Source: Comamonadaceae bacterium ALPHA2B (GTDB taxonomy: Bacteria > Pseudomonadota > Gammaproteobacteria > Burkholderiales > Burkholderiaceae_C). Taken from it: a stretch of DNA of 64,000 nucleotides. The notes under the pieces were generated by a model that ran no database searches, was not told the DNA's origin, and saw only the letters and a list, made by a program, of their open reading frames with translations. Shown here piece after piece: positions 5,702 to 60,733 of the stretch. The first letter of the stretch is position 1; each line of letters begins with the position of its first letter. The translations under genes and the position numbers were made by a program. The stretch spans positions 1-64,000 of the forward strand of contig SCOE01000009.1 in the NCBI GenBank assembly GCA_005503065.1. Reading direction: 5' to 3'.

Positions 5702-5729
5702 GCGGTTGTTCCTTCGCGGTGCTGCGGGC

Positions 5730-6530: not shown

Positions 6531-7318
6531 CGGGCCACCTTCCAGTTGGCTGCGCGCTTGCCCAGGAAGGCGGCGATGCCTTCGGCAGCCTCGGGCGTCT
6601 CCCAGGCATCGGCCAGCGCGTTGGCGGTGTAGTCCATGCACTCGCGCGGTGGCCGGCCGTGCACGTCGTTGAACAGCTGCTTGGTCGCCGCGATCGAGCT
6701 CGCCGGCAGCGAGAGCACGAGATCGAGTTCCTCATCCACCGCGCGGTCCAGGTCTTCGGGCGCGACGACACGGTCCACCAGGCCGATGCGCTCGGCCTGC
6801 GCGGCGTCGATGAACTGCGTCGTCAGGCCGTAGCGGCGCGAACGCGCGAGGCCGATCTTGCGCGCGACGTACGGGCCGATGTTGGCCGGCACCAGCCCGA
6901 GCCGCGCCTCGGTGAGCGAGAAGCGCGCGGTGCTGGCCGCGACGGCCACGTCGCAGATGCAGGTCATGCCGAAGCCGCCGCCGGTGGCCGGGCCGTTGAT
7001 GCGACCGATCACCACCTTGGGCAGGCGGTCGAACTCGTAGAACAGGTCGGCCAGCGGCAGCGAGTCGGCGATGCGCTGCTCGCGGCTCTGCGACAGCACC
7101 GTCTGCATCCAGGTCAGGTCGCCGCCCGCACAGAACGACTTGCCTTCGCCGCTGAGCACCACCGCACGCAGCTTCGTGTCGGCGCCGATCGCGGCGATGG
7201 CGTGCAGCAGCTCGCGCACCACGTCCAGGCTCAGCGCGTTCTGGATCTCGGGGCGGGCGAGCGTGAGGCGGGCGACATACGCGCTGTCGCGCGTGAGGCG
7301 GATGGTCTTGTAGTCCAA
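6527..7318 (-). CDS. Enoyl-CoA hydratase, methylglutaconyl/isohexenylglutaconyl-CoA hydratase type
   Basis: A 263-aa crotonase. The start is taken as TTG at 7318 because GGAG lies just upstream and the protein then begins at the crotonase N-terminus; no ATG fits. The active-site pattern (GGGFGMTCICD without the first Glu, then SLTEARLGLVPANIGPYVA with the second) is typical of the LiuC/AtuE branch, which hydrates 3-methylglutaconyl-CoA or isohexenylglutaconyl-CoA made by a biotin carboxylase. It lies 20 bp after the carboxylase alpha-subunit gene, the same association as in liu and atu operons. The likely reaction is hydration of a carboxylated beta-methyl-branched enoyl-CoA; the chain is unknown. 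Confidence 0.82.
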   Translation of the reverse strand: MDYKTIRLTRDSAYVARLTLARPEIQNALSLDVVRELLHAIAAIGADTKLRAVVLSGEGKSFCAGGDLTWMQTVLSQSREQRIADSLPLADLFYEFDRLPKVVIGRINGPATGGGFGMTCICDVAVAASTARFSLTEARLGLVPANIGPYVARKIGLARSRRYGLTTQFIDAAQAERIGLVDRVVAPEDLDRAVDEELDLVLSLPASSIAATKQLFNDVHGRPPRECMDYTANALADAWETPEAAEGIAAFLGKRAANWKVAR

Positions 7319-7338
7319 CGGGTTCTCCAGGCGGGTTG

Positions 7339-9368
<2,030 letters not shown>

Positions 9369-9369
<1 letters not shown>

Positions 9370-10172
9370 CAGCGCCCGCTCCAGCGCGGCGGCCGCTTCT
9401 CGTTGAAGGCGCGCACGCCTTCGAGCCGGTCCTGCGACGACACGAGCACGTTGTAGGCGGCAATGTCGAGCGCGTAGCCGCTGTGGAAGTCGACCTCGCC
9501 GCCGCGCGACGCCGCCACCTTGGCGTAGTGCACGGCCATCGGCGCGGCCAGCGCCACCTCGCGCGCCTCGGCCACCGCGGTGGCAAGCGCCTGGCCGGGC
9601 TCGACCAGCGTGGTGGTGATGTTCCACTGTGCAGCCTGCTCCGCGCTGAAGCGGCGCGCGGTCAGCAGCAGTTGCTTGGCGCGCCGCGCCCCGGCCGCGC
9701 GCACCAGGTTCTGGATGCCGCCGCCGCCGGGCATGATGCCGCGCCGCACCTCGGGCAGCGAGAACACCGCCGAGCGCGCGGCCACGATCCAGTCGCACAT
9801 CAGCGCCAGTTCGCAACCGCCGCCATGCGCATGGCCTTCCACGGCGGCGATCACCGGGCACGGAAAGTCCTTCACCGCCAGCAGCACCTCCTCGGCCAGC
9901 TGGTGCTGTCGCCGCCACTGCTGGTCGGTCATGCCGTCGCGCTGCTTCAGGTCGCCGCCGGTGCTGAAGGCGCGCTCGCCGGCACCGGTGACGACGAGCA
10001 CGCGCAGGCCGTCGTCGTAGGCCAGATCATGCAGTGCGGCGCGCAGGTCGACGAACATCTGCGTGTTCATCGCGTTCATCACCTCGGGTCGGTTCAGCAC
10101 CAGGCAACGCACGCCCTCGTCGGGGGAGGTGCCCGGGGCTGGCTCGACGCGCAGCGTCTCGTAGGTTCCCAT
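9369..10172 (-). CDS. Enoyl-CoA hydratase
   Basis: A 267-aa crotonase that keeps both catalytic glutamates of classical enoyl-CoA hydratase: the first in HGGGCELALMCD and the second in SLPEVRRGIMPGGGG. It can therefore be expected to hydrate trans-2-enoyl-CoA. A tail of the form EGVRAFNEKRPPRWSGR closes the protein. It lies between a dehydrogenase and the carboxylase alpha gene in the same operon, 9 bp from the former and overlapping the latter by one base. Confidence 0.9.
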
Positions 10173-10181
10173 CGTGCGGTC

Positions 10182-11348
10182 TCAGTACGAACGCGGCATG
10201 CCAAGCAGATGCTCGGCCACCTGCGCCAGAACCAGGTTGTTGGAGATCGGCGCGGTGCGGAACAGGCGGCTTTCCTTCCACTTGCGCTCGATGTCGAACT
10301 CGCAGGCCACGCCGTAGCCGCCAAAGGTGGTCATCGCGGCCTCGGCCGCCTCCCAGGCGGCCTCGCTGGCGAGGTACTTCACCATCGTGGCCTCGCGGCC
10401 GCAGGGCTGGCCGGCGTCGAACAGCGTGGCCGCCTTGTTGCGCATCAGCTCGGCCGCCTCGACGTTGAGGTGCGCCCGCGCGATCGGGAACTGCACGCCC
10501 TGGTTGGAGCCGATCGGGCGGTCGAACACGACGCGCTCGCGCCCATAGGCCGCGGCCTTGCCGACGAACCAGTGGCCGTCGCCGATGGCCTCGCTGGCCA
10601 CCAGCAGGCGCTCGCTGTGCAGCGAATCGAGCAGGTAGTGGAAGCCCTTGCCTTCCTCGCCGATGCGATCGTCGTCGGCGAGCTCCAGGTTGTCGATGAA
10701 CACCTCGAAGGTGTGGTGGTTGATCATCGTCTTGATCTGGCGCGACTGCAGCGCCTTGCCGGCCTTGGCGATGTCGATCAGGAACAGGCTCAGGCCGTCG
10801 GTCTTCTTCTTCACCTCGGCGAGCGGCGTGGTGCGCGCGATCAGCAGGTACAGGTGCGAATGGCTGTAGCGCGAGGTCCAGATCTTCTGCCCGTTGAGCA
10901 CGTAGCCGCCGGGCACGCGGCGCGCGAAGGTCTTGATCGCCAGCGTGTTGGAACCGGCGTCGGGCTCGGTCACTCCGAAGGCCTGCAGGCGCAGGCTGCC
11001 GTCGGCGATGCGCGGCAGCGTGCGGCGCTTCTGCGCCTCGCTGCCGTGGCGCATGATCGAGGCCATCGTGTACATCTGCGCGTGGCAGTGCACGGCGCTG
11101 GCGCCGTTCTGGTTGATCTCCTGCAGGATCAGGCAGGCGTCGAGCAGCGGCAGGCCGGCGCCGCCGTATTCCTCGGGGATCAGTGCGGCCAGCCAACCGG
11201 CCTGGGCCATCGCATCGACGAAGGCCTCGGGGTACTGGCCGTCCTGCGCCAGCTGGCGCCAGTACGCGGGGCCGAAACGCGCGCACAGCTCCTTCACGGC
11301 GGCGCGGATCTGGGCCTGGGTGTCGGTGTAGTCGAAGTTCATCGGCAT
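10182..11348 (-). CDS. Acyl-CoA dehydrogenase, IVD-like catalytic arrangement
   Basis: A 388-aa FAD-dependent acyl-CoA dehydrogenase. The FAD motif FGVTEPDAGSNT and the substrate helix are present. The position of the canonical catalytic Glu near the C-terminus reads RTAPISNN, so that Glu is absent. A Glu in the earlier helix (HSERLLVAS) sits where isovaleryl-CoA dehydrogenase carries its base, suggesting an enzyme for branched acyl-CoA. The ATG at 11348 gives MPMNF; the second Met, two codons later, is an alternative. It precedes a hydratase and the carboxylase alpha gene, consistent with dehydrogenation before carboxylation. Confidence 0.88.
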   Translation of the reverse strand: MPMNFDYTDTQAQIRAAVKELCARFGPAYWRQLAQDGQYPEAFVDAMAQAGWLAALIPEEYGGAGLPLLDACLILQEINQNGASAVHCHAQMYTMASIMRHGSEAQKRRTLPRIADGSLRLQAFGVTEPDAGSNTLAIKTFARRVPGGYVLNGQKIWTSRYSHSHLYLLIARTTPLAEVKKKTDGLSLFLIDIAKAGKALQSRQIKTMINHHTFEVFIDNLELADDDRIGEEGKGFHYLLDSLHSERLLVASEAIGDGHWFVGKAAAYGRERVVFDRPIGSNQGVQFPIARAHLNVEAAELMRNKAATLFDAGQPCGREATMVKYLASEAAWEAAEAAMTTFGGYGVACEFDIERKWKESRLFRTAPISNNLVLAQVAEHLLGMPRSY

Positions 11349-11373
11349 GGGAAATTGACTCCTTCCGGTCGGT

Positions 11374-12567
11374 TCAGCCGATCACGCCGAGGCGCTGCAG
11401 CGCGGCCTGCGCCGCTGCATCGATGCCCAAGGCATGGAGCACGGCCGCGGTGTCGGCGCCCAGCGCCGGTGGCGCCGTGGGCGTGCGGCCACGCTCGCCG
11501 CCGCTGTTGAAGGGCAGGCCGATGGCGCGGTGCCCGGGTGCCTGCGGCAGCGGCACGTCGGTCAGCAGCCCCAGGGCCTGAACCTGCTCCTGCTCCAGCA
11601 CCTGGGCCACGTTGTTCAACTCGCTGCAGGGCGCGCCGGCCGCGCGCAGCAGGGCGATGCACTCGGCGGTGCTGCGCGTGCGCGTGTGCGCTGCCAGCGC
11701 CTCGTGCAGCGCGTCACGGTGGCCCACGCGCAAGGGGTTGTCGACGAAGCGCGCATCGCGCGCCAGCTCAGGGCAGCCCAGCGCGTCGCAGATGCGGGCG
11801 AACAGCCGGTCGTTGGCGGCCGCGATGAAGACCTGGCCGTCGGCCGTGTCGTACAGCTCGTAGGGCACCATCATAGCCATGCCCGAGCCCATCTTGCGCG
11901 GCAGCCGGCCCGTGGCCAGGTAGTTGGCGATCGGCACCGCCATCCACGCCAGGCCGGTCTCCAGCAGGCTGGCGCCCACACGCAAGCCCTGGCCGGTGGT
12001 GGCGCGCTGCAGCAGGGCCGCGAGCACGGCCATGGCGGCCCACATGCCGGTGCCCAGGTCGATCAGCGACACGCCCACCCGCGCCGGCTCGTCGCCTTCG
12101 TGGCCGGTGACGCTCATGATGCCGGTGAAGGCCTGCATCAGCGGGTCGTAGCCGGGCAGGCCACGCATCGGCCCCGCCTCGCCGAAGGCGCTGATGGCGC
12201 AGTACACGAGCCGTGGGTTCGCGGCGCGCAGCGGTTCGTCGCCCAGGCCGCGCGCCTCGGCGCTGCCCGGCTTGAGCGAATGCACCAGCACGTCGGCACC
12301 CGCGGCCAGCTGCGCCACGATGCGCTGGCCCTCGGGCCGGTCGAGGTCGAGCGCGACGCTCTTCTTGCTGCGGTTCAGCGCCGCAAAGCCGGTGCCCATG
12401 CCGCCGATCTCGGGCGGCCGCCAGGCGCGCGCGTCGTCGCCGCCGCCCGGCCGCTCGATCTTGATGACGTCGGCGCCGAGGTCGGCGAGCACCTGCGTGC
12501 AGTACGGGCCGGCGACGTTCTGCGTCAGGTCGATGACGCGCAGGCCCTGGAGGACGGAGCCGAGCAT
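11374..12567 (-). CDS. Type III CoA-transferase (CaiB/BaiF family)
   Basis: A 397-aa family III CoA-transferase. The N-terminal signature GLRVIDLTQNVAGPYCTQVL and the catalytic aspartate at about residue 170 (SLIDLGTGMW), equivalent to Asp169 of formyl-CoA transferase, are visible. Such enzymes move CoA between carboxylates and spare ATP. The start at 12567 is 5 bp downstream of the stop of the carboxyltransferase gene; an in-frame GTG one codon earlier is an alternative. In this operon it could activate the incoming acid at the expense of a later CoA thioester. Donor and acceptor are unknown. Confidence 0.88.
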   Translation of the reverse strand: MLGSVLQGLRVIDLTQNVAGPYCTQVLADLGADVIKIERPGGGDDARAWRPPEIGGMGTGFAALNRSKKSVALDLDRPEGQRIVAQLAAGADVLVHSLKPGSAEARGLGDEPLRAANPRLVYCAISAFGEAGPMRGLPGYDPLMQAFTGIMSVTGHEGDEPARVGVSLIDLGTGMWAAMAVLAALLQRATTGQGLRVGASLLETGLAWMAVPIANYLATGRLPRKMGSGMAMMVPYELYDTADGQVFIAAANDRLFARICDALGCPELARDARFVDNPLRVGHRDALHEALAAHTRTRSTAECIALLRAAGAPCSELNNVAQVLEQEQVQALGLLTDVPLPQAPGHRAIGLPFNSGGERGRTPTAPPALGADTAAVLHALGIDAAAQAALQRLGVIG

Positions 12568-12572
12568 CACCG

Positions 12573-14180
12573 TCACATCCTGAACACGCCGAAACGCGTG
12601 TCGCGTTGCGGCTGGCGGCCGGCCAGCTCGAACAGCAGGGCCAGCGTGTCGCGCGTCTCTAGCGGGTCGATGACCATGTCGCACCACAGGTTGGAGGCGA
12701 AGTTGTAGGGGCTGGCGAAGGCCTCGAACTGCTCGCGGATCGGCTGCTTGAAGCGCTCGCGCTCGGCGTCGGTCCAGCTCATGCCTTCGCGTTCGTGGAT
12801 GCGGTCGCGCACCATCGTCAGCGTGGTGGCGGCCTGCTCGGGGCCCATCAGCGCGGCACGGCCGCTCGGCCACATCAGCATCGCATGCGGCTTGAACGGC
12901 CGCCCGCACATCGCAAGGTACGCCGCGGCGTACGAGCCGCCGGTGATGAGCGTGTAGCGCGGCACGCTGGCCGAGGCCATGGCGGTGATGAACTTGGCGC
13001 CGTGCTTGGCGATGCCCTCGCGCTCCACCGCCTGCCCGACCATGAAGCCCGACACGTCGGCCACGAACAGCAGCGGGATGTCGCGCTGGCAGGCCAGCTC
13101 GATGAAGTGCGCGCCCTTGACCGCAGCCTCGGAAAAGATGACGCCGTTGTTGGCCAGGATGCCGACCTGGAAGCCCTTGATGCGCGCGAAGCCACAGACC
13201 AGCGTGTCGCCGTACAGCGGCTTGAATTCCTGGAACTCGCTGCCATCGACCAGACGCGCGACGACCTCGCGGTTGTCGGTGGGGTGGCGCGTGTCGGCGC
13301 TGACGATGCCGTAGATCTCTCGCGGGTCGTGCAGCGGCGCGCGGCTCGGGGCCACGTTCCAGCGCTGCTTCGGCGGCGTGCCGAGGTTGGCCACGATGTC
13401 GCGCACGATGGCGATGGCGTGGCCGTCGTTCTCGGCCAGGTGGTCGGTGACGCCGCTGACGCGGCTGTGCATCTCGCCGCCGCCCAGCGTCTCGACATCG
13501 ACCTCTTCCTTGGTGGCCGCATACACCAGCTCGGGCCCGCCGAGGAACATCGCGCCCTGCTTGCGCACGATGACGGCGATGTCGCACAGCGCCGGCAGGT
13601 AGGCACCGCCCGCGGTGGACGGGCCATGCACGGTGGCGATCTGCGTGATGCCCTCGGCCGACATGCGGATCTGGTTGTAGAAGATCGACCCGAACTGGCC
13701 GTCGTCCGGGAAGATGTGCGCCTGCTCGGGCAGGTTGGCGCCGCCGGACTGGACCATCGTGATGCATGGCAGCCGGTGCTGCCAGGCGAACATCTGCGCC
13801 CGCACGTGCTTCTTCGCGGTGATGCCGTAGTAGGTGGCGCCCTTCACCGTGGCGTCGTGGATCATCAGCATGCACGGCCGGCCGCTGACCAGGCCCACGC
13901 CGGTGATGATGCTGCCGCCGGGCGGCACGCCCTCGTACAGGCCCTCGCCCGCGAGCTGGCCGAACTCCAGGAACGGCGAGCCGGGGTCGAGCACCGCTGC
14001 CAGCCGCTCGCGCGGCAGCAGCTGGCCGCGCTGCTGGTGCAGGCGGCGCGCCTTCTCGGGCCCGCCGATGAGCGCCCGCGCACGGCGTGCGTGCAGGTCG
14101 GCGATGCGCGCGAGGTAAGCCTCGTGGTTGCGCGCGAAGGCCTCGCCGCCGGGCGAGACCGTGGAGGGCATCACCGTCAT
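12573..14180 (-). CDS. Acyl-CoA carboxylase beta subunit (carboxyltransferase)
   Basis: A 535-aa carboxyltransferase of the methylcrotonyl/geranyl-CoA carboxylase type. Both halves look intact: in the N domain VQSGGANLPEQAHIFPDD and the oxyanion loop PSTAGGAYLPALCD, in the C domain SGFMVGQ, GGSYAAAYLAMCGR and MGPEQAATTL. It should transfer the carboxyl group from carboxybiotin (alpha subunit at 7339-9369) to an enoyl-CoA gamma carbon. The ATG at 14180 overlaps the upstream dehydrogenase stop (ATGA). It is the canonical reference for the three aberrant paralogues at 48841-53633. Confidence 0.92.
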   Translation of the reverse strand: MTVMPSTVSPGGEAFARNHEAYLARIADLHARRARALIGGPEKARRLHQQRGQLLPRERLAAVLDPGSPFLEFGQLAGEGLYEGVPPGGSIITGVGLVSGRPCMLMIHDATVKGATYYGITAKKHVRAQMFAWQHRLPCITMVQSGGANLPEQAHIFPDDGQFGSIFYNQIRMSAEGITQIATVHGPSTAGGAYLPALCDIAVIVRKQGAMFLGGPELVYAATKEEVDVETLGGGEMHSRVSGVTDHLAENDGHAIAIVRDIVANLGTPPKQRWNVAPSRAPLHDPREIYGIVSADTRHPTDNREVVARLVDGSEFQEFKPLYGDTLVCGFARIKGFQVGILANNGVIFSEAAVKGAHFIELACQRDIPLLFVADVSGFMVGQAVEREGIAKHGAKFITAMASASVPRYTLITGGSYAAAYLAMCGRPFKPHAMLMWPSGRAALMGPEQAATTLTMVRDRIHEREGMSWTDAERERFKQPIREQFEAFASPYNFASNLWCDMVIDPLETRDTLALLFELAGRQPQRDTRFGVFRM

Positions 14181-45599: not shown

Positions 45600-46784
45600 T
45601 GACGGTGCTCGGCGCCGGCACGAGCAACGCGCCGGCCTTCGCCCTCGGCGAAGAGCAGCGCCAGATCCGTCAGATGGTGCGCCGGCTGGCGCGCGAGCGT
45701 GTGGCGCCGCGCGCCGACGCCATCGACCGCACGGCCGAGTACCCGCAGGACATGTTCGAGCTGCTGCGCGAGGCCGGGCTGTTCGCGATCCCGTTCCCGG
45801 CCGAGTACGGCGGCACCGGCAGCATGCTGTCGGCCGCGGTGGCCATCGAGGAGCTGGCGCGCGTCTGCTACAACACCGCGTACCTGCTGGTCGTGCAGTG
45901 GGTACCCTTCGGCGCCATCCTCGCCGCCGGCACTGAGCAGCAGAAGCAACGCCTGCTCGGGCCGCTGGCCGCCGGTCAGTTGCGCGGTGCCTTTTCCACC
46001 ACCGAGCCGCAAAGCGGCTCCGACGTGGCCGGCATTCGGACGCGCGCGCGCCGCTGCGAAGGAGGCTACCGCATCAGCGGCTCGAAGATCTGGTGCACCA
46101 ACTCGCCGGTGGCCGACTTCGTGCTCGTCGCCGCCAAGACCGGCGAGGCCGACACCACGGGCGCCATCAACCTGTTCATCGTCGAGCGGGGCAGCAAGGG
46201 CTTCACGGTCGGGCGCCACGAGGACGATGGGCGCGCGCGGTGTGCCTTCGTGCCCCCTCTTCCTCGACGAGGTCTTCGTTCCCGAGGCCAACCGAATTGG
46301 CGATGACGGGCGCGGCTTCAAGGCAGTGATGGAAGCCTTCAACAAGAGCCGGCCGCTGATCGGCGCGCGCGGCGTGGGCCTGGCGCAGGGCGCGGTCGAT
46401 CTCGCCATCGAGTTCGTGCAGGGCCGCGTCACCTGGGGCCGTGCGGTGAGCGAGTACCAGGGCATCCGCTGGATGCTGGCGGACATGGCCACGCAAACCG
46501 AGGCCGCGCGTCAGCTGGTGTACAGCGCCGCCGCAGCGGTGGACGCGGGCCTGACCGGCACCGCCCTGGCCCCGGTGGCGGCCATGGCCAAGTGCTTTGC
46601 CACCGACACCGCGATGCGCGTGGCCACCGACGCGGTGCAGCTGTTCGGCGCCGCGGGCATCTCAGCCGACGTGCCGATCAACCGCTACTTCCGCGACGCC
46701 AAGGTGCTGCAGATCATCGAGGGCACCAACCAGATCCAGCGCAACATCATCGGCGACAGCCTGCTGGGAAAGGTGAGGCGCTGA
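45599..46784 (+). pseudogene. Acyl-CoA dehydrogenase with a frameshift near 46224
   Basis: An acyl-CoA dehydrogenase split by a frameshift. The first frame runs from ATG 45599 (LGEEQRQIRQMVRRLA, STTEPQSGSDVAGIRT, GSKIWCTNSPVADF) to GRHEDDG. The sequence then continues in another frame as MGARGVPSCPLFLDEVFVPE through to IIEGTNQIQRNIIG, which holds the canonical catalytic Glu. Two bases (probably from a Lys codon, as in EDKMG of relatives) appear to be missing near 46224-46226. Repairing it would give about 395 aa. Real mutation or sequencing error. Confidence 0.82.
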
Positions 46785-46822: not shown

Positions 46823-48826
46823 TCACTCCGGCATGACCGACACCACCACCGCGTTGCGCTCGACCGTCTGCCCGACGCGGCAATTCACCGCCGCCACCGT
46901 GCCGGCGCAGTCCGCGGTGATGCGCATCTCCATCTTCATCGACTCGAGGATCGCGACCACCGTACCCTTGTCGACGCGGTCACCCGGCGCGACGTTTACC
47001 TTCAGGATCAGCCCCATCATCGGCGCCTTCACGTCGCCGCTGGCCTGTGCCGACGCGCTGATGTAGGACAGGTACGGCACCGCCTTCAGCGCGTGCGTGC
47101 CACGGCCGTCCTGCACGTGCAGCATGTCGCCGTCACGGTGCACGGTCACCAGCTCGCGCAGGCCGTCGGCAATGGCCAGGAAGCGGCCCTCTCCGCCAGC
47201 CGGTCCGAGCCGCAGGCGCAGCCGCGCGGTACCGACCCCGATGAGCAGGCTGCCGTCGCGCGCCACCGGCCCGAAGCGGATCTCGGCGCTGGCGCCGTCG
47301 GAGCCTTCCACGTGCACGCTGGGCACCGGTGCCAGGCCATCGTCGCCGCTGTTCAGCTGCCAGCCGCTGCCGCCCCACGCGGCCCACGGGCTGCGGGCGC
47401 TGCCGGCACTGTCACCTCGCTCGCCGCGCAGCCAGTGCATGGCACCGATGGCCAGTGTGCGTTCGTCGTGCTCGGCCTTGCCCAGCGCCCAGCCCTCGAT
47501 CTGCTCGTCGATCAGCCGTGTGTGGAAGGTCGCCTTGCGCGTCTCGGGCAGGTCGATCAGGCGCTGCAGGAAGCCGATGTTGCTGGTGACGCCGAAGACC
47601 CGCGTGTCGTCCAGCGCCCGCTCCAGCCGGTCGAGTGCCTCGTCGCGTGTCGGTGCGTGCGTGATCAGCTTGGCCAGCATCGAGTCGTAGTACGGCGTGA
47701 CCTCGCCGCCCGACTCCACACCGGTCTCCACGCGCACGCCCGCGCTCGGGAAGCCCACGTGCGAGAGCCTCCCGGTGGAAGGCAGGAAGTTCGCCGCCGG
47801 GTCCTCGGCGCAGATGCGCGCCTCGACCGCGTGGCCGCTGATGCGCACGTCCTCCTGCGCCAGCGGCAGGCCCTCGCCCGAGGTGATGCGCATCATCAGC
47901 TCGACGATGTCCAGGCCGGTGATGGCCTCCGTCACCGGGTGCTCGACCTGCAGCCGCGGGTTGACCTCGAGGAAGTGGTAGTCCTTCTCGCCGACGATGA
48001 ACTCGACCGTGCCGACGCCGCGGTACTTCAGCCGCTCGCCCAGGCGCACGGCATCGGCCGCCATACGGTCGCGCATCGCCGCGCTCAGGTTCGCGGCGGG
48101 CGCTTCTTCGATCACCTTCTGGTGGCGTCGTTGCAGCGTGCACTCGCGCTCGAAGAGATGGATGACCTTGCCCTGGCCGTCGCCGGCGATCTGGATCTCG
48201 ATGTGGCGCCCGCGCCGGATCAGCTTCTCGACGATCAACCCGGCATCGCCGAAGGCGTTCTTCGCCTCGCGCATCGCCGACTCGATCTCCTGCGCCAGGC
48301 CGTCCATTGTCTCGATGCCGCGCATGCCCTTGCCGCCGCCGCCCGCGGCGGCCTTCAGCATGACCGGCAGACCGACGCGCCGCACGGTGGCGGCGATCTC
48401 GGCGGGGTCGGTGCTCGGCGACTGGCTGCCGGGCACGATGGGAACGCCGGCCGCGTCGGCCTCGCGCTTGGCCGCCGCCTTGTCGCCCAGGCGCTCGATG
48501 ACTTCGGGCGTCGGGCCGATGAAAACCAGCCCGGCGGCCTCGACCGCGCGCGCGAACGCCGCGTTCTCGGCCAGGAAGCCGAAGCCGGGGTGGATGGCCT
48601 GCGCGCCGACCGACTTCGCGGCAGCAATCACCGCGTCGATGCGCAGGTAGCTCTCGGAAGCCGCGGCACCGCCGATCTCGACGGACTCGCCGATCTCGCG
48701 CACATGCAGCGCGTCGCGGTCGGCAGCCGAGTGCACGCCCGCCACCGCCACGCCCAGGCGGCGGCAGGTGCGGGCGATGCGGCAGGCGATCTCGCCGCGG
48801 TTCGCAATCAGAATCTTCTTGAACAT
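46823..48826 (-). CDS. Acyl-CoA carboxylase alpha subunit (biotin carboxylase + BCCP)
   Basis: A 667-aa biotin carboxylase/carrier subunit, paralogue of the one at 7339-9369. It has FKKILIANRGEIACR, the ATP-grasp loop KAAAGGGGKGM, FLEVNPRLQVEHPVTE, a linker region, and the biotinyl motif ESMKMEM with Lys631. The ATG at 48826 lies 14 bp after the carboxyltransferase stop at 48841. It is the only biotin-carrying subunit near three carboxyltransferase genes, so it may serve all of them. Confidence 0.92.
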   Translation of the reverse strand: MFKKILIANRGEIACRIARTCRRLGVAVAGVHSAADRDALHVREIGESVEIGGAAASESYLRIDAVIAAAKSVGAQAIHPGFGFLAENAAFARAVEAAGLVFIGPTPEVIERLGDKAAAKREADAAGVPIVPGSQSPSTDPAEIAATVRRVGLPVMLKAAAGGGGKGMRGIETMDGLAQEIESAMREAKNAFGDAGLIVEKLIRRGRHIEIQIAGDGQGKVIHLFERECTLQRRHQKVIEEAPAANLSAAMRDRMAADAVRLGERLKYRGVGTVEFIVGEKDYHFLEVNPRLQVEHPVTEAITGLDIVELMMRITSGEGLPLAQEDVRISGHAVEARICAEDPAANFLPSTGRLSHVGFPSAGVRVETGVESGGEVTPYYDSMLAKLITHAPTRDEALDRLERALDDTRVFGVTSNIGFLQRLIDLPETRKATFHTRLIDEQIEGWALGKAEHDERTLAIGAMHWLRGERGDSAGSARSPWAAWGGSGWQLNSGDDGLAPVPSVHVEGSDGASAEIRFGPVARDGSLLIGVGTARLRLRLGPAGGEGRFLAIADGLRELVTVHRDGDMLHVQDGRGTHALKAVPYLSYISASAQASGDVKAPMMGLILKVNVAPGDRVDKGTVVAILESMKMEMRITADCAGTVAAVNCRVGQTVERNAVVVSVMPE

Positions 48827-48840
48827 GGTGCTGGCCCGCC

Positions 48841-50412
48841 TTACATCCGGAACACGCCGAAGCGCGAGGGCACCGCCGGCACGCGGCCGGCCAGGTCGAG
48901 CAGCATCGCCATCACGTCGCGCGTTTCGGCCGGCTCGACGATCAGGTCGCACCAGGTGTTGCGCGCAAAGTTGTAGGCGTTGGCGAAGTCCTCGAAGGTC
49001 TTGCGCACCGGCGCCTTGTAGGCTTCGCGCTCGGCGTCGGTCCAGCTCGTGCCGTCGCGCTTGTGCTGGTCGTCCTTGACCATCGCCAAGGTGGTGGCGG
49101 CCTGGTCGGGGCCCATGATCGCGGCACGGCCGTTGGGCCACATCATCATCGCATTGGGCTTGAACGCGCGGCCGCACATCGCGAGGTAGCCCGCGCCGTA
49201 GGAGCCGCCGATGATCAAGGTGTACTTGGGCACGTTGGCGCAGGTCATCGCGGTGATCATCTTCGCGCCGTGCTTGGCGATGCCGGCCTCCTCGGCCTCG
49301 CGGCCGACCATGAAGCCGTTGATGTCGGCCATGAACAGCAGCGGGATGTCGCGCTTGCAGCACAGGTCGATGAACTGCGTGGCCTTGAGCGCGCTCTCGG
49401 AGAACAGCACGCCGTTGTTGCACAGGATGCCGATGTCGAAACCCTGGATGCGCGCGAAGCCGGTGATCAGCGTGTCGCCGAACTCGGGCTTGAACTCGTG
49501 CAGGTCGCTGCCGTCGATCAGGCGCAGCACGATCTCGCGGTTGCTGGTGGGCACGCGCGGGTCGGCGCTGACGAGGCCGTAGATCTCGCGCGTGTCGTGC
49601 AGCGGCTCGCGCGGCTCGGCCACGTCGCGCCGCTGCTTGGGCACATCGCCCAGGTGGCCGACCAGGTCGCGCAGGATGGCGATGGCGTGCGCATCACTCT
49701 CGGCCAGCCGGTCGGTGACGCCGTCCTCGCGGTTGGCGCGCTCGGCGTCGGCGGGCGCCGGAACGGCTGCGCCGAAGGCCAACGCACCGCGCTCGCGCAC
49801 CACGACCACCTCGTCGCACATCGCGGCCACGAACGCCGCCGCATCCGCCGCGGGGCCGTGCACGCTGCAGATCTGCGCGATGCCCTCGCGCGACATGCGC
49901 GTCTGGTTGTACAGGATCGAGCCGAACTGGCCCTCGTCGGCGAACACACCCTGCCTGGCGCCGGGCGGCTGCGCGCCGGGCTGCAGCATCGTCACGCACG
50001 GCAGGCGGTGCTGCCACGCGAAGCGCTGCGCGCGCACGTGCCGCTTGCAGGTATGGGCGTTGTAGGCGCCGTCGTTGACCGTGGGATCGCTGGCGATGAC
50101 CATGCATGGCCGCCCGGCGATCATGCCCACGCCGGTGACGACGCCGGCGCCGGGTGGATCGTCGCCGTACAGGCCCTCACCAGCCAGCTGGCACAGTTCG
50201 AGGAAGGGCGAGCCCGGGTCGAGCAAGGCGCTGATGCGCTCGCGCACCAGCATCTGGCCGCCGTCGCGCAGCTGCTGGCGGGCCGCGGCCGAGCCGGCCG
50301 CCAATGCCGCCGTGCGGCGCGCGCGCAGATCGGCCACGCGGGCCTCATAGGCCACGCGGTTGGCCTGCAGCTCCTCGGGGCTGGCGGTGATGGCGGATGC
50401 CAGGATGCTCAT
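48841..50412 (-). CDS. Carboxyltransferase subunit with degenerate N (acyl-CoA) domain
   Basis: A 523-aa member of the acyl-CoA carboxylase beta family. The C domain is canonical: INGFMVGR at about 364-371, GGSYGAGYLAMCGR from 402, MGPDQAATTL from 433, and a full-length C-terminus. The N domain has lost its conserved elements. VQSGGA is LQPGAQ (143-148), the oxyanion loop PSTAGGAY is PAADAAAF (187-194), TVKGG is TVNDG, and about 12 residues around FLGGP to LGGxxHSRxSG are missing (about 214-230). On its own it is unlikely to bind and carboxylate an acyl-CoA in the usual way. It may complement the paralogues encoded divergently at 50603 and 52134. Confidence 0.88.
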   Translation of the reverse strand: MSILASAITASPEELQANRVAYEARVADLRARRTAALAAGSAAARQQLRDGGQMLVRERISALLDPGSPFLELCQLAGEGLYGDDPPGAGVVTGVGMIAGRPCMVIASDPTVNDGAYNAHTCKRHVRAQRFAWQHRLPCVTMLQPGAQPPGARQGVFADEGQFGSILYNQTRMSREGIAQICSVHGPAADAAAFVAAMCDEVVVVRERGALAFGAAVPAPADAERANREDGVTDRLAESDAHAIAILRDLVGHLGDVPKQRRDVAEPREPLHDTREIYGLVSADPRVPTSNREIVLRLIDGSDLHEFKPEFGDTLITGFARIQGFDIGILCNNGVLFSESALKATQFIDLCCKRDIPLLFMADINGFMVGREAEEAGIAKHGAKMITAMTCANVPKYTLIIGGSYGAGYLAMCGRAFKPNAMMMWPNGRAAIMGPDQAATTLAMVKDDQHKRDGTSWTDAEREAYKAPVRKTFEDFANAYNFARNTWCDLIVEPAETRDVMAMLLDLAGRVPAVPSRFGVFRM

Positions 50413-50534
50413 GGCGCCGCCCGATCCATGCCGACAGAAAGCGTCGGGGATGTTGGCCGGGTAAAGAAATGCATGTCGTTCAGCATGTGCGTCGGGAGAT
50501 TGGGGACTGCCGGCGATCGGAGATCAGGGCCGCA

Positions 50535-50564
50535 TTGCGCGTACGGCAGTCACACCGCTAGAAT
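50535..50564 (+). promoter_or_regulatory. Candidate promoter for the plus-strand carboxyltransferase pair
   Basis: TTGCGC (50535-50540) and TAGAAT (50559-50564) with an 18-bp spacer lie about 40 bp before the ATG at 50603. The palindrome at 50565-50582 begins immediately downstream, where a repressor would block initiation. Confidence 0.4.
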
Positions 50565-50582
50565 ACCAAACATTTGTTAGGT
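50565..50582. promoter_or_regulatory. Palindromic operator candidate
   Basis: ACCAAACATTTGTTAGGT is an 18-bp palindrome with mismatches only at the fourth and ninth pairs. It sits in the divergent region between the two sets of carboxyltransferase genes. A related element (CCAAAC with TTTGTTAG, wider spacing) occurs at 60734-60752. TetR-family repressors of acyl-CoA pathways bind sites of this size; the regulator is not in the window. Confidence 0.5.
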
Positions 50583-50602
50583 CATCAAATTTCAACTCGC
50601 CC

Positions 50603-52102
50603 ATGACATCGCCAGCAACGTTAGACACCCTCCGCGACGAGCGTTTTGCCCGGCGCGAGCAGGCCTACCGCCAACTGATGGCCCGCCTGAGCGCGCGGCT
50701 CGACGAGGCCCTGACCGGCGGCAGCGAGAAGGCGCGCAAACTGCACAAGAGCCGCGGCCAGATGCTGCCGCGCGAGCGCGTGCAGGCGCTGCTCGACCCC
50801 GGCTCGCCTTTCTTCGAGATCGGCCAACTCGCCGGCGCCGACCTGTACGAGGGCGTGCCCCCAGGCGCCACGATGATCACCGGCGTGGGCCAGGTCTGCG
50901 GGCGCTGGTGCATGTTGCTGGTGAATGACGCCACGGTGAAGGGCGGCACCATGTTCGGCATGACCACCAAGCGGCACACGCGGGCACAGCTGTTTGCGTG
51001 GCACCACCGCCTGCCGTGCATCACGATGGTCCAGTCCGGTGGCGGCTTCCTGCCCGATCTGGCCAACATCTTCCCCGACGAAGGCCAGGCTGGCTCGATC
51101 ATGTACAACCAGGTCAAGATGTCGGCCGAAGGCATTGCACAGATCGCCCTCGTGCACGGCCCCTCCACGGCGGGCGGAGCCTACATCCCCGCGCTGTGCG
51201 ACGAGGTGGTGATCATCCGCAAGCAGGGCGCCATGTTCCTGGGCAGCCCTCAGCTGGTGTTCGCCGCCACCGGCGAGGTCATCGACATCGAGCCGCTGGG
51301 CGGCGCCGAGATGCACAGCCGCCTGAGCGGCGTCACCGACCACATGGCCGATGACGACGAGCACGCGCTGGCCATCACCCGGCGCATCGTCGCACACCTG
51401 GGCGAGCCGCCGCGGCTGCGCTGGACACGCGCCGAGCCCGCGCCGCCGCTGCACGACCCTCGGGAACTGGCGGGCCTGGCCGCCGTCGGCGCGGTCGAAG
51501 GCGCCGACTGCCGCGACATCCTGGCGCGGCTGGTGGACGGCAGCCAGTTCCAGGAGTTCAAGCAGCTGCACGGCGAGACGCTGGTGTGCGGCTTCGCCCG
51601 CATCGAAGGCTTCGAGGTCGGCATCGTCGCCGGCCACGGCCTGCTCACCGCGCAGGCCGGTGCCAAGGGCGCGCACTTCGTGCAGCTGTGCGGCCAGCGC
51701 GACATCCCGCTGGTGTTCCTCGTCGACTCCCCCGGCTTCGCCGACAGCAGCCGGCCGGGCCAGACCAACGTCGGCCGCCACGGCGCCAAGCTGCTGAACG
51801 CGGTGGCCAACGCCGACGTGCCCAAGTTCACCGTCATCACCGGCCGCGCCCACGGCGCGGCCTACCACGCGCTGGGTGGCCGCGCCTTCAAGCCCAACGC
51901 GCTGCTGATGTGGCCCGGCGCCCGCGCCTCGGCATCGCCCGACGCGCCCGACGACGAGGCCGGGGCGCTGAACTGGGCGCGCCAGCTGTGGTGCGATGCC
52001 ATCGTCGAGCCCGAGCGCACCCGTGCTGTGCTGGCACAACTGCTCGACGTCGCGGGCCGCCTGTCCGCACAGCCCGCGGCCTACGGCGCTTTCCGCATGT
52101 AG
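50603..52102 (+). CDS. Carboxyltransferase subunit with altered, shortened C domain (copy 1)
   Basis: A 499-aa acyl-CoA carboxylase beta-family protein. The N domain is canonical: TVKGGTMFGM, VQSGGGFLPDLANIFPDE (143-160), the oxyanion loop PSTAGGAYIPALCD (187-200), FLGSPQLVFAATGE and LGGAEMHSRLSGVTDH. The C domain deviates: DSPGFADS in place of xGFMVG, GRAHGAAYHALGGR (414-427) where GGSxGAG is expected, and ASPDAPDDEAG where the MGxxxA element lies. About 36 residues of the following helical segment are absent. Acyl-CoA binding should be retained; carboxybiotin handling is doubtful without a partner. No clear Shine-Dalgarno is seen. Confidence 0.88.
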   Translation: MTSPATLDTLRDERFARREQAYRQLMARLSARLDEALTGGSEKARKLHKSRGQMLPRERVQALLDPGSPFFEIGQLAGADLYEGVPPGATMITGVGQVCGRWCMLLVNDATVKGGTMFGMTTKRHTRAQLFAWHHRLPCITMVQSGGGFLPDLANIFPDEGQAGSIMYNQVKMSAEGIAQIALVHGPSTAGGAYIPALCDEVVIIRKQGAMFLGSPQLVFAATGEVIDIEPLGGAEMHSRLSGVTDHMADDDEHALAITRRIVAHLGEPPRLRWTRAEPAPPLHDPRELAGLAAVGAVEGADCRDILARLVDGSQFQEFKQLHGETLVCGFARIEGFEVGIVAGHGLLTAQAGAKGAHFVQLCGQRDIPLVFLVDSPGFADSSRPGQTNVGRHGAKLLNAVANADVPKFTVITGRAHGAAYHALGGRAFKPNALLMWPGARASASPDAPDDEAGALNWARQLWCDAIVEPERTRAVLAQLLDVAGRLSAQPAAYGAFRM

Positions 52103-52133
52103 CCCCGGCCGCGGCGTGGCACCGGCGAAAGAC

Positions 52134-53633
52134 ATGCAGGCAATCAGCAGCGCGGCGGCAACTACCGGCGCCGATTTCGAAACCCGCCGCGCCCGCTTCG
52201 ACGCGCTGGCCTCGGCGCTGCAGGCGCGGCGCGACGAAGCCTCGGCCGGCGGCAACGAGCGCGCGCGCAAGCTGCACCAGAGCCGCGGCCAGCTGCTGCC
52301 GCGCGAACGCATCGCGGCGCTGCTCGATGCGGGCGCGCCTTTCTTCGAGATCGGCCAACTCGCCGCCGCCGACCTGTACGACGGCGTGCCACCGGGCGCC
52401 ACGCTGATTACCGGTGTGGGCCGCGTGGCCGGGCGCGAGTGCATGCTGATCGTCAACGACCCCACGGTGAAGGGCGGCACGATGTTCGGCATGACCACCA
52501 AGCGCCATGTGCGGGCGCAGATGTTCGCCTGGCAGCACCGGCTGCCGTGCATCACGATGGTCCAGTCGGGCGGTGCCTTCCTGCCCGACCTGGCCAACAT
52601 CTTCCCCGACGACGGCCAGGGCGGATCAGTGATGTACAACCAAGTGAAGATGTCGGCCGAAGGCATCGCGCAGATCGCCCTCGTCTTCGGCCCCTCGACG
52701 GCCGGCGGCGCCTACATTCCCGCGCTGTGCGACGAACTCGTCATCGTGCGCAACCAGGGCGCGATGTTTCTCGGCAGCCCGCAGCTCGTGTATGCCGCCA
52801 CCGGCGAGGTGGCCGATTCCGAGGCACTGGGCGGCGCGCTAATGCACTGCAGCCTGAGCGGCGTGGCCGACCACCTGGGCGACGACGACGCCGATGCGCT
52901 CGCCATCGCGCGGCGCATCGTCCGTCATCTGGGCGAACCGGCGCCGCTGCGCTGGACGCGCGCTGCGGCCGAAGAGCCGCTGCACCCCGCCATCGAACTG
53001 CGGGGCCTGGTGCGTCTGAACGGCGAACCCGCGGCCGATGCCGGCGAGCTGATCGTGCGCCTGGTCGACGGCGGCCGCTTCCAGGAGTTCAAGCCGCTGC
53101 ACGGCGAGTCCCTGCGGTGCGCCTTCGCCCGCATCGAGGGCTTCGAGGTCGGCATCGTCGCCGGCGCCGGCGCGCTCACCGCGCAGGCAGCGGCCAAGGG
53201 CGCCCACTTCATCGAGCTGTCCGTACAGCGCGACATCCCGCTCGTATTCCTGGTCGATTCCCCCGGCTTTGCCGACAGCGGCGAGGCGTCGCAGGGCAGC
53301 ATCGGCCGCCACGGCGCGAAGCTGCTCAACGCGGCGGCCAATGCCGATGTGCCCAAGATCACCGTCATCGTCGGACAGGCCCATGGCGCCGCCTACCACG
53401 CGCTGTGCGGCCGCGCCTTCAGGCCCAACGCGCTGCTGATGTGGCCCAACGCGCGCGCCGCCGCGTCGCCCGATGCGCCCGACAACGAAACCGGTGCGCT
53501 GAACTGGGCGCGCCAGCTGTGGTGCGACGCCGTGATCGAGCCCGAGCAGACGCGCGGGGTGCTCGCACAGCTGCTCGATGCGGCCGGCCGCACGCCGGCG
53601 CGGCCGGGCGGCTGGGGCGTGTTTCGCATGTGA
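52134..53633 (+). CDS. Carboxyltransferase subunit with altered, shortened C domain (copy 2)
   Basis: A 499-aa tandem paralogue of the preceding protein, 31 bp downstream of it. The N domain again keeps VQSGGAFLPDLANIFPDD, the PSTAGGAYIPALCD loop and FLGSPQLVYAATGE, though LGGALMHCSLSGVADH has drifted. The C domain has DSPGFADSG, GQAHGAAYHALCGR and ASPDAPDNETG with the same shortening as copy 1, so the change predates the duplication. Two closely related copies may widen substrate range or assemble as distinct hetero-oligomers. The start is the ATG at 52134. Confidence 0.88.
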   Translation: MQAISSAAATTGADFETRRARFDALASALQARRDEASAGGNERARKLHQSRGQLLPRERIAALLDAGAPFFEIGQLAAADLYDGVPPGATLITGVGRVAGRECMLIVNDPTVKGGTMFGMTTKRHVRAQMFAWQHRLPCITMVQSGGAFLPDLANIFPDDGQGGSVMYNQVKMSAEGIAQIALVFGPSTAGGAYIPALCDELVIVRNQGAMFLGSPQLVYAATGEVADSEALGGALMHCSLSGVADHLGDDDADALAIARRIVRHLGEPAPLRWTRAAAEEPLHPAIELRGLVRLNGEPAADAGELIVRLVDGGRFQEFKPLHGESLRCAFARIEGFEVGIVAGAGALTAQAAAKGAHFIELSVQRDIPLVFLVDSPGFADSGEASQGSIGRHGAKLLNAAANADVPKITVIVGQAHGAAYHALCGRAFRPNALLMWPNARAAASPDAPDNETGALNWARQLWCDAVIEPEQTRGVLAQLLDAAGRTPARPGGWGVFRM

Positions 53634-58231: not shown

Positions 58232-60571
58232 TCAGCCCGGCAGCTCGAGCACCGCCTTGGCCAGGATGTTGCGCTGGATCTCGTTGCTGCCGCCGTAGAT
58301 GCTGGCCGGGCGGGCCGAGAAGAACACGTGCGCCGGGTGCAGCGCGCCGCCCGGCAGCGCCATCGATGCGTCGCTCACGCCGGCGGCACCCGCGGTCTCG
58401 AGCATCAGGTCGGCCACCCGCTGCTGCGCCTCGGTGATCCAGACCTTCAGCATCGACACCTCGGCACCGAGTTCATGCCCGCGGCGCAGCACCTCGACGC
58501 AGCGCACGAACATCGCCTCAAGGTCATCGATGTCCAGCCGCAGCTGCTCGTGCCGCGCGCGCCAGGCACCGTCGCGGTCAAGGCCGGTGGCGCGCGCCAG
58601 CTCCGCCAGGCGCGCGAATGGCGCGCGCGCGCCGCGCGGGTTGCCGATCATGATGCGCTCGCTGCCCAGCAGCGACTTGGCCATCGTCCAGCCCTGGTTC
58701 AGCCCGCCGACGAGGTTGGCCTTCGGCACGCGCACGTTGTCGAAGAAGGTCTCGCAGAACTCGGCGTTGCCGCCCAGGTTGCGGATGCGCTTGACGGTGA
58801 TGCCGGGCGCGCGCATGTCCGCCAGCAGGAAGCTGATGCCTTCCTGCTTCTTGGCCTTGGGGTCGGTGCGCACGAGCATGAAGATCCAGTCGGCCTCGTG
58901 CGCGAACGAGGTCCAGATCTTCTGCCCGTTGACGACGAACTCGTCGCCGTCGAGCACGGCCGTCGTGCGCAGGCTGGCCAGGTCGGAGCCCGCCGAGGGC
59001 TCGGAGTAGCCCTGGCACCAGCGCACCTCGCCCGACAGGATGCGCGGCAGCACCTCGCGCTTCTGCTGCTCGGTGCCGTAGCGGATGATCAGCGGCCCGA
59101 GCATGATCACCGCCATGTTCGGCGCGATAACGATGCCGTGGCGGTCGAACTCCGACTGCAGCGCCACCTGCTCGTAGCCAGATAGCCCCATGCCGCCGTA
59201 GGCCTTGGGCCAGTTCGGCGCCACCCAGCCCTTCTCGTGGAGCTTGTCGTGCCAGGCGCGCGTTTCCTTCAGGCTCATGCGGCTGGCCGGGAAGCGCCAC
59301 GCGGGCGGGAAGTTCTCGGCCAGCCAGCGGCGCAGCTCGTCGCGGCGGATCGGCTGCTCGCCGCCGGCGATCAGCTCGGGCGCCGAGGCTTGGTCGCCGT
59401 CGCCGGCCAATTCGTTGTAGCGGCGCCGGTGCAGCGCCGCGTTGCCCAGCCAGGCCGCGCCGACCATCGCCTTCTTCAGGTACAGGCCGATGTCGCATTC
59501 GTCGGTGTAGCCGATGCCGCCGTGCAGCTGGATGCAGCCCTTGGTGACCTCCAGCGCCGCCGCCGAGGCCCGTGCCTTGGCCTGGCTGGCGGCGATGGCC
59601 AGCCGCCGCGCATCGCTGCCATGCGTGTCGGCCGCCGCGGCCGCCTGCAGCACCACCGAGCGCGTGAGCTCGACCTGGATCAGCAGGTCTGCGGCGCGGT
59701 GCTGCAGCGCCTGGAAGCTGCCGATGGCGCGACCGAACTGCTCCCGCATCGCGATGTAGGCGACGCTGGTTTCGAGCGCCTGGCTCATCACGCCCAGCAG
59801 CTCGGCGGCTTCGGCGATGCGCGCCAGGTCGAGCGCGCGCTGCAGCACGCCCTGCGCGTGCGCCGGCCCGGCGACCAGCTGCGCGCCGGAGACTTCGGCG
59901 CCCTCGAACCGCAGTTCGGTCCAGAAGCCGCCGTCCACGCGCGGTTGCGTGCTGGTCTGCAGGCCGCGCTGGCTGGCCTCCACCAGCAGCAGCAGCACAC
60001 CCTGCGCGCCCTCCGCCGCCACCACGAAAGCGTCGGCCCCTGCGCCGCCGGCCACGAAGCGGCAGCGCCCGTCGAGCACGAAGCCCGCGCCGCGCGAAGC
60101 GGCTCGCGGGGCTTCGACGCTGCGGCGGCCTCCGGCAGCGTCGCCGTCGTCTTCATCCAGTTCATCGGCCTGCGCTCCGGCCGCCAGCGCGAGTTGCACC
60201 TCGCCGCGCGCCAGTGCCGGCAGCCAGCGCTCGCGCAGCGCCTGCGAGTCGCCGTGCAGCAGCGCCCAGGCCGGCAGCAGCGCACCGGCCACCAGCGGCT
60301 CGGGCGCGAGCGCGCGGCCGCAGCGCTCTAGCAGCACCGCCGCCTCGCCGGCGCCGAGCCCGCTGCCGCCCAGCGCCTCGGGCAGGCACAGGCCGAGCCA
60401 GCCCAGGCCGGCCATGCGCCGCCAGCGCTCGCGGTCGTGCCCGGGCAGCGTGCCGCGCCATTCGCGCAGGCGACGGCCCGGGCCGTCGGCGGCGAAGAAG
60501 GCGGCGGCGGCGTCGCGCAGCATGCGTTGCACCTCGGTGGGTGCGTCGAGCCGTTCGGTCAGATCGATCAT
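58232..60571 (-). CDS. Fused two-domain acyl-CoA dehydrogenase (FadE34-like)
   Basis: A 779-aa single chain made of two acyl-CoA dehydrogenase modules. The first (about 1-390) is of the small-subunit type (LGWLGLCLPEALGG, CIQLHGGIGYTDECDIGLYLKKA). The second (about 395-779) is of the large-subunit type (CQGYSEPSAGSDLASLR, NGQKIWTSFAHEADW, LLGSERIMIG with a candidate base, IYGGSNEIQRNIL). The order is that of mycobacterial FadE34, where the fusion replaces a heterotetramer. Here it precedes the DUF35 and thiolase-like genes, as expected for a side-chain-shortening module. The start is the ATG at 60571. Confidence 0.88.
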   Translation of the reverse strand: MIDLTERLDAPTEVQRMLRDAAAAFFAADGPGRRLREWRGTLPGHDRERWRRMAGLGWLGLCLPEALGGSGLGAGEAAVLLERCGRALAPEPLVAGALLPAWALLHGDSQALRERWLPALARGEVQLALAAGAQADELDEDDGDAAGGRRSVEAPRAASRGAGFVLDGRCRFVAGGAGADAFVVAAEGAQGVLLLLVEASQRGLQTSTQPRVDGGFWTELRFEGAEVSGAQLVAGPAHAQGVLQRALDLARIAEAAELLGVMSQALETSVAYIAMREQFGRAIGSFQALQHRAADLLIQVELTRSVVLQAAAAADTHGSDARRLAIAASQAKARASAAALEVTKGCIQLHGGIGYTDECDIGLYLKKAMVGAAWLGNAALHRRRYNELAGDGDQASAPELIAGGEQPIRRDELRRWLAENFPPAWRFPASRMSLKETRAWHDKLHEKGWVAPNWPKAYGGMGLSGYEQVALQSEFDRHGIVIAPNMAVIMLGPLIIRYGTEQQKREVLPRILSGEVRWCQGYSEPSAGSDLASLRTTAVLDGDEFVVNGQKIWTSFAHEADWIFMLVRTDPKAKKQEGISFLLADMRAPGITVKRIRNLGGNAEFCETFFDNVRVPKANLVGGLNQGWTMAKSLLGSERIMIGNPRGARAPFARLAELARATGLDRDGAWRARHEQLRLDIDDLEAMFVRCVEVLRRGHELGAEVSMLKVWITEAQQRVADLMLETAGAAGVSDASMALPGGALHPAHVFFSARPASIYGGSNEIQRNILAKAVLELPG

Positions 60572-60616
60572 GGACTCTCGCCTCGGGTTCAGGTCCTGGC
60601 ATCGGATTCGGGCTTG

Positions 60617-60647
60617 CCGGGGTCGCCGCCCTGCGGCGCCACCCCGG
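60617..60647. other. Nested hairpin in the divergent leader region
   Basis: CCGGGGT (60617-60623) pairs with ACCCCGG (60641-60647), and inside it CGCCGC pairs with GCGGCG around a CCT loop. On the minus strand it would lie about 46 nt before the start of the fused dehydrogenase and could shape its leader RNA. No function can be assigned. Confidence 0.3.
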
Positions 60648-60733
60648 CGGCACAACGTCAGCGCGCGGCGCGCCCTGCCGCACCCCGGGTGCCGGCCCCT
60701 GGTGCTGCCCTCCATCCTGTGGCATCGTTGAGT

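Follow-up and report, generated by a model that had tools for sequence, protein, structure and literature searches.

The 64,000-nucleotide stretch of Comamonadaceae bacterium ALPHA2B DNA analysed here (contig SCOE01000009.1, positions 1 to 64,000; hereafter the window) carries one biotin carboxylase gene next to three genes for carboxyltransferases of the beta type, which we call b, c and d. The biotin carboxylase subunit alpha (46823..48826, minus strand, 667 aa) comprises the Pfam domains Biotin_carb_N, CPSase_L_D2, Biotin_carb_C and Biotin_lipoyl, i.e., a biotin carboxylase together with a biotin carboxyl carrier protein (BCCP), and shows a biotinylation motif MKM (ESMKMEM) close to its C end. 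Its gene starts 14 bp after that of b (48841..50412, minus strand, 523 aa), and b and c (50603..52102, plus strand, 499 aa) diverge from an intergenic region of 190 bp (50413..50602). The fourth gene, d (52134..53633, plus strand, 499 aa), encodes a protein 75% identical to c. All three carboxyltransferases match PF01039 (Carboxyl_trans) with 343.5 (b), 340.4 (c) and 335.4 bits (d) at a cut-off of 22.3, with c and d aligning only up to position 404-405 of the 493 profile positions. Matches to PF03255 (ACCA; b 50.6, c 25.8 and d 33.3 bits, cut-off 23) are weak and overlapped by the far stronger Carboxyl_trans match. The AccA models of NCBIfam stay below their cut-offs (b 24.4-53.8 bits versus 300-406; c and d lower or unlisted), and none of its carboxyltransferase models reaches cut-off for b, c or d.

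In 3-methylcrotonyl-CoA carboxylase (MCC) and propionyl-CoA carboxylase (PCC), the active site of the beta subunits lies between the N domain of one protomer and the C domain of another. Alignment with canonical relatives, including the genome's own copies, reveals that b has kept only the C-domain half of this site and that c and d have kept only the N-domain half. In the N domain of b, SGGA is replaced by PGAQ (49969..49980, minus strand) and TAGGAY by ADAAAF (with DAAAF in place of the oxyanion segment AGGAY at 49831..49845, minus strand), the stretch following FGA is deleted, and the protein is 12 residues shorter than the canonical copy encoded at 12573 in the window (523 versus 535 aa). 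Its C domain retains GGSYGAG (49189..49209, minus strand) and MGPDQAATT (the MGPDQAA element at 49096..49116, minus strand). Conversely, the N domains of c and d keep SGGG (c, 51035..51046, plus strand) or SGGA as well as TAGGAY (AGGAY of c at 51170..51184, plus strand), and in their C domains GGSYGAG has become GRAHGAA (c, 51842..51862, plus strand) or GQAHGAA. The MGxxxA region is deleted, in c together with the following residues (51931..51932, plus strand), and both proteins are a net 36 residues shorter than the canonical 12573 copy. The coordinates, strands and motifs given in the original prediction proved correct, as did its description of b as having lost SGGA, AGGAY and about 12 residues beside a canonical C domain, of c and d as combining a canonical N domain with an altered C domain lacking about 36 residues, and of a GAAY-like segment that remains there, which c keeps as GAA(Y).

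This decay in opposite domains, as originally proposed, is upheld by counts at invariant positions and by the domain trees described below. Of the positions invariant in 18 canonical neighbourhood sequences (72 in the N domain and 48 in the C domain; the truncated sequence G046_25 excluded), b of the window is changed at 24/72 and 1/48, respectively, c at 0/72 and 14/48, and d at 1/72 and 13/48. Across loci, the 15 b rows are changed at 22-26 N-domain and 1-3 C-domain positions and the 22 complete c and d rows at 0-3 and 9-15, compared with 0-4 and 0-8 for canonical rows by leave-one-out. Every one of the 15 b rows is changed at Gly191 and Tyr194 of AGGAY, at Lys113 and at the two residues after SGG, and every complete c and d row lacks two glycines of GGSxGAG and the MGxxxA element. 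Partial conservation is also seen in the altered segments, which read ADxxAF or AW in b and are GAAY-like in c. A looser test used 38 non-redundant MCC-type sequences (from 118 collected) and 90 columns per domain that are at least 95% conserved; b is changed at 36/90 N-domain and 18/90 C-domain columns (Fisher p 0.005), c at 13/90 and 34/90 (p 0.0006), and d at 14/90 and 34/90 (p 0.001). Complete canonical relatives of the clade are changed at 6-15 N-domain and 14-22 C-domain columns, a range that leaves out L002_C33 (0 and 0; an MCC like those of the panel) and the truncated G046_25 (9 and 27, with 15 being gaps). Because two canonical rows reach nominal imbalance between the domains in this panel (L183, p 0.015; L090_10662, p 0.041), the strict test is the sharper one.

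AlphaFold models of b and c reach pLDDT values of 85.6 and 86.9 and pTM values of 0.88 and 0.89, respectively. In Foldseek searches, both match MCC-beta over their full length (query TM-score, TMq, 0.89-0.94 in the 20 best matches of b and 0.88-0.94 in the 21 best of c), so that folding is predicted even for the decayed domains. Matches to PCC-beta have TMq values of only 0.40-0.45, and the connectivity between N and C domain in both models is of the MCC type. The long N-terminal helix that, according to PMC4673880, marks MCC and geranyl-CoA carboxylase (GCC) spans residues 12-38 in b and 13-38 in c. Given the full-length match to two-domain MCC-beta, neither protein has the single crotonase domain of AccA or AccD.

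To find related loci, we scanned contigs using the C domains of c and d as queries. Of 430 relatives, the best 80 were kept, and the first 16 (L076-L091) were examined for gene content. At least one gene of the decayed kind is present in 15 of these 16, which come from Xenophilus azovorans, Schlegelella koreensis (two loci), Ramlibacter albus, Hydrogenophaga intermedia, Caenimonas sedimenti and several metagenome-assembled genomes (MAGs), and the remaining one, L090 of a Rhodocyclaceae MAG, has three complete copies. L088 holds a d-type gene only and stems from the same MAG as L085, and contig ends cut b in L081 and c in L091. Three loci of one further genus (L177-L179; b 74% identical) carry the same pair with an N domain of b that has decayed further (LAQPAPP, ADILAF or ADVLAF) and with a deletion in c that differs from that of the other loci. 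Across 20.5 kb, L076 and the window share 99.985% identity, and L082/L083 (99.8%) and L080/L081 (99.0%) are further near-identical pairs; with such loci merged, there are about 15 distinct ones, all in bacteria from soil and water. At 74% identity or more, b occurs in 7 of 399 family genomes (11 passed the E-value limit, the other four being relatives with 55-58% identity), and the decayed C domain of c is found in exactly these seven. The next-best b matches of the order-wide search (399 genomes) are at most 54% identical, and the one examined among them, G046, is canonical; class-wide (369 genomes), only the window's own genome passed the limit for b. No near orthologue of b was found on plasmids, as all 382 records stayed below 60% identity (best among the matches listed, 54.6%). 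Since b is present in only 1 of 14 other genomes searched of the window's genus (G005), and since one of the two module copies of Schlegelella koreensis (L077, L080) is 98.2% identical to the window over 20.5 kb (the other, 85%), we suggest that the module has moved horizontally.

Wherever one locus holds both genes, b and c are adjacent and divergent, and alpha adjoins b in all loci whose contig extends that far (it is partly cut in L085, the contigs of L081 and L088 end before it, and in L087 it is broken into two frames). No other tested neighbour is constant: genes for a thiolase, DUF35, acyl-CoA dehydrogenases and acetoacetyl-CoA synthetase were found in some loci and not in others. The co-occurrence across genomes on which the original prediction could be checked, and the linkage whose absence would have spoken against it, are thus both observed for b, c and the biotin carboxylase gene. 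Its trio around one biotin carboxylase is present in the window, but as a recurring unit a fixed trio is ruled out: a single decayed C domain was found in four of the seven pair-bearing genomes (G537, G599, G621 and G690; eight best candidates scored per genome, all drafts), so that d is not needed beside b and c. It is alpha-b-c that recurs, with d as an optional addition. In the MAG locus L087, alpha lies in two overlapping frames (5542-7727), and in L086, also from a MAG, d is spread over three (10575-12204); both genes are broken or misassembled.

The acyl pocket of GCC is made mainly by the N domain, and Phe191 of human MCC corresponds to Gly162 of GCC, where a swap alters substrate preference, according to PMC4673880. 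We located this position by residue counts on 8j4z and 5ikl (assuming that the 5ikl chain begins at residue 2) and find Phe in all 15 b rows, Ala in all 15 c rows (Ala163 in the window, 51089..51091, plus strand) and Gly in all 7 d rows (Gly163, 52620..52622, plus strand). The three complete copies of L090 have Gly, Phe and Ala. Neither known enzyme is matched by this pattern. The Phe expected in a working N domain of MCC is found in b, where that domain is decayed, and c and d have Ala and Gly; the Gly of GCC is found in d alone, and the loop of both c and d is of MCC length, with the short insertion before the pocket residue that GCC lacks.

Domain trees of 56 rows (ten of 66 were left out, among them the duplicates L175, L176 and L180, the broken L185 and the cut c of L091) group b, for both domains, with the complete copies of Phe type from L090 and G046 and place c and d near the complete Ala/Gly-type copies (N-tree support 100/98, C-tree support 85/88). 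The stem leading to b is long in the N tree (0.41) and short in the C tree (0.11), and that leading to c and d has the opposite asymmetry (0.20 and 0.66); the stem of the canonical 12573 clade (this copy and two relatives) measures 0.16 and 0.14. In the N tree, the 12573 clade joins Phe-type copies, and in the C tree Ala-type ones, which indicates that domains have been exchanged within the family, and the 12573 copy itself looks like a product of such an exchange, as judged from these placements. It is a complete Phe-type carboxyltransferase (12573-14180, sharing about 58-60% identity with b; a biotin carboxylase alpha lies nearby at 7339-9918; minus strand) and the canonical counterpart of b in the window. 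The alpha proteins encoded beside the complete copies in L090 and G046 are 68-71% identical to that of the window, so that the loci look like two states of a single operon, prior to and following decay. G046 has two complete copies in tandem and a third that is truncated where another contig ends. The N-domain segments of its tandem copies (L039, 3802-5445 and 5520-7127) are near-identical and the rest differs, which looks like gene conversion. Genes for a 3-hydroxy-3-methylglutaryl-CoA lyase-like protein and CoA-transferases lie beside the complete copies of G046 and fit with gamma-carboxylation.

Ratios of nonsynonymous to synonymous substitution rates (dN/dS) were computed without the cut c of L091 and four rows lacking DNA mapping (three of G046 and L002), using 102/105 pairs of b, 104/105 of c and 20/21 of d (the rest being too close to measure). 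Median dN/dS is below 1 in every half: 0.32 (N) and 0.15 (C) for b, 0.23 and 0.28 for c, and 0.23 and 0.27 for d. For b, the median dN is 0.177 in the N domain and 0.046 in the C domain. The median ratio of dN between N and C domain is 3.94 for b, 0.80 for c and 0.86 for d, compared with 0.92, 1.88 and 1.25 in three canonical groups; present rates thus display the asymmetry clearly in b only. The median dS of b orthologues in the C domain (0.28) is about half of that in the N domain (0.61).

Based on these sequence comparisons, our preferred interpretation, with a probability of roughly 0.78, is that alpha, b and c (or d) form one obligate hetero-oligomeric biotin-dependent acyl-CoA carboxylase of the gamma-carboxylating MCC/GCC type. 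We infer that b and c would assemble, as in MCC, into a beta hexamer, here a mixed one built of b-c dimers, where in each dimer the N domain of c would bind the acyl-CoA and the C domain of b the carboxybiotin brought by alpha, making up one working site. The second composite site of each dimer would bring together the two decayed halves, contributed by b (N domain) and c (C domain), so each dimer is expected to combine one live with one dead site, leaving about three of six sites live. The obligate hetero-oligomer with hybrid active sites that had originally been proposed is therefore kept, with its testable sequence-level predictions borne out, and refined to a putative b-c minimum with a live and a dead site in every dimer. 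Since intact N domains are confined to c and d, with Ala or Gly in the pocket, acyl groups larger than 3-methylcrotonyl are the expected substrates of the complex, the largest being expected for d, which could substitute for c. The alternative acyl-CoA specificities once suggested for c and d gain a plausible basis in this difference at the specificity residue. The arrangement may have arisen by reciprocal degeneration in an operon that formerly combined one alpha with complete subunits of both Phe type and Ala/Gly type. Such reciprocity would need no coincidence, since in a heteromer the second site is redundant and both its halves are free to decay together. A broader picture of a modular carboxylase, in which b is the shared C-domain donor and c (Ala) and d (Gly) are interchangeable N-domain donors that let one biotin carboxylase serve acyl-CoAs of several sizes, each dimer having a live and a dead site and all being derived by reciprocal decay from a complete-enzyme operon, is tentative and in our estimate falls somewhat short of even odds; the joining of c and d in the N-domain tree lowers its probability.

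Several observations weigh against the proposed hetero-oligomer and its origin. The C domain of c retains the GAA(Y) segment and 34 of 48 invariants, so that residual function is possible, and four b rows (L085, L086, L089 and L091) retain SGG and one glycine of AGGAY (ADSGAF), a milder state of the N domain. The asymmetry in the current rates of c (0.80) is slight given how much the controls vary and is clear for this protein only on the stem and at invariant positions. The loci are related, so that the co-occurrence counts lack independence, and the lowest confidence of the models falls on residues 147-159 in c and 411-414 in b, close to active-site segments that have been retained. In the N tree, c and d form one clade (100/100), which disfavours separate descent from Ala-type and Gly-type complete copies, and their grouping with complete copies in the C tree reaches only 85/88. 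The Ala of c and the Gly of d may either descend from Ala- and Gly-type complete copies or have originated after duplication of c and d.

The retained segments in c would also agree with a different explanation: c (and d) would be catalytically competent as a homo-oligomer whose C domain has been remodelled, and b would be a pseudo-subunit with a structural or regulatory role. In line with this idea, the model of c is of high confidence in the C domain, where median dN/dS is 0.28; however, the 47 of 48 C-domain invariants retained by b would be needless for a mere scaffold, b evolves far slower in its C domain than in its N domain, and the MGxxxA element and the two GGSxGAG glycines are gone from every complete c and d row, so that we consider this explanation unlikely. 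Still less probable is that both sites of a b-c dimer work and that the altered one, in which the N domain of b would face the C domain of c, catalyses another reaction or takes another acyl group. Median dN/dS values below 1 in every half, the partial conservation of the altered segments and the SGG and glycine retained in four b rows would suit such a second activity, but Gly191, Tyr194, Lys113 and the two residues after SGG are changed in 15/15 b rows, and the decay is more advanced in L177-L179.

Deletions and lost motifs could also point to relaxed selection or pseudogenisation after loss of function, as could the split frames of d in L086 and of alpha in L087, both in MAGs. We reject this explanation as very improbable: the frames of b and c stay open in loci where b has as little as 74% identity, median dN/dS values lie between 0.15 and 0.32, b is paired with c in 7/7 genomes, and the intact halves are nearly unchanged. 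An assembly or annotation artefact, for which nothing speaks beyond the oddity of the arrangement, is rejected with hardly any doubt, as the same arrangement is present in the separately sequenced isolates of Xenophilus azovorans, Schlegelella koreensis, Ramlibacter albus, Hydrogenophaga intermedia and Caenimonas sedimenti and in several MAGs.

The proteins b and c resemble the beta subunit of MCC and GCC in sequence family, N-to-C domain order, fold and N-terminal helix, and in being accompanied by an alpha subunit that joins biotin carboxylase and BCCP. However, in those homohexameric enzymes one polypeptide has both halves of the active site, whereas here each polypeptide has one working half. 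AccA and AccD of heteromeric acetyl-CoA carboxylase likewise place the N-domain and C-domain functions on separate polypeptides, with an interface site where, according to PMC11077971, carboxybiotin is bound on the alpha and acetyl-CoA on the beta carboxyltransferase subunit. Yet these are single-domain proteins from the splitting of one subunit, as described in PMC3199775, and b and c have two domains each, one of them decayed; the b-c arrangement would thus re-create the AccA/AccD split through decay. Mycobacterial long-chain acyl-CoA carboxylase contains two different beta subunits in one complex, AccD4 and AccD5, whose interaction is reported in PMC4347857; for b and c, a shared complex is predicted from co-occurrence and linkage. 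Structures of the AccD4/AccD5 complex (12 and 24 chains across 6 PDB entries) differ from our models in having PCC-type connectivity (TMq about 0.44 to b). We know of no reciprocal decay in AccD4 and AccD5. By analogy, the proposed b-c dimer may be likened to the deoxyhypusine synthase heterotetramer of trypanosomatids, in which paralogues complement each other and every heterodimer interface has a catalytic and an inactive site, as stated in PMC10820115, but this is an unrelated eukaryotic enzyme that uses no separate carrier-bound substrate. Among the papers listed by a literature search, judged by titles or the start of abstracts and with subscription papers mostly outside its reach, there was no enzyme of the design proposed for alpha, b and c.

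If correct, the proposed hetero-oligomer would represent a traceable change from a homo-oligomer with composite sites into an obligate hetero-oligomer through loss of opposite halves, with complete relatives (L090 and G046) and milder states (L085, L086, L089 and L091) still extant. Neutral growth of complexity and half-site redundancy would then be directly testable in a large carboxylase, and natural parts for mixing acyl-CoA specificity would be available. On the same reading, automatic annotation of b or c singly as a working carboxylase is probably wrong.

Besides these genes, an acyl-CoA dehydrogenase gene (about 45600-46784, plus strand) is present in the window as two overlapping frames, and its relative in L077 (3888-5225) is a single open frame, so that a frameshift or sequencing error is possible. 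Elsewhere in the window, two acyl-CoA dehydrogenases are apparently fused in one frame of 827 aa (58232-60715, minus strand), which adjoins thiolase-like and DUF35 (ChsH2-like) genes.

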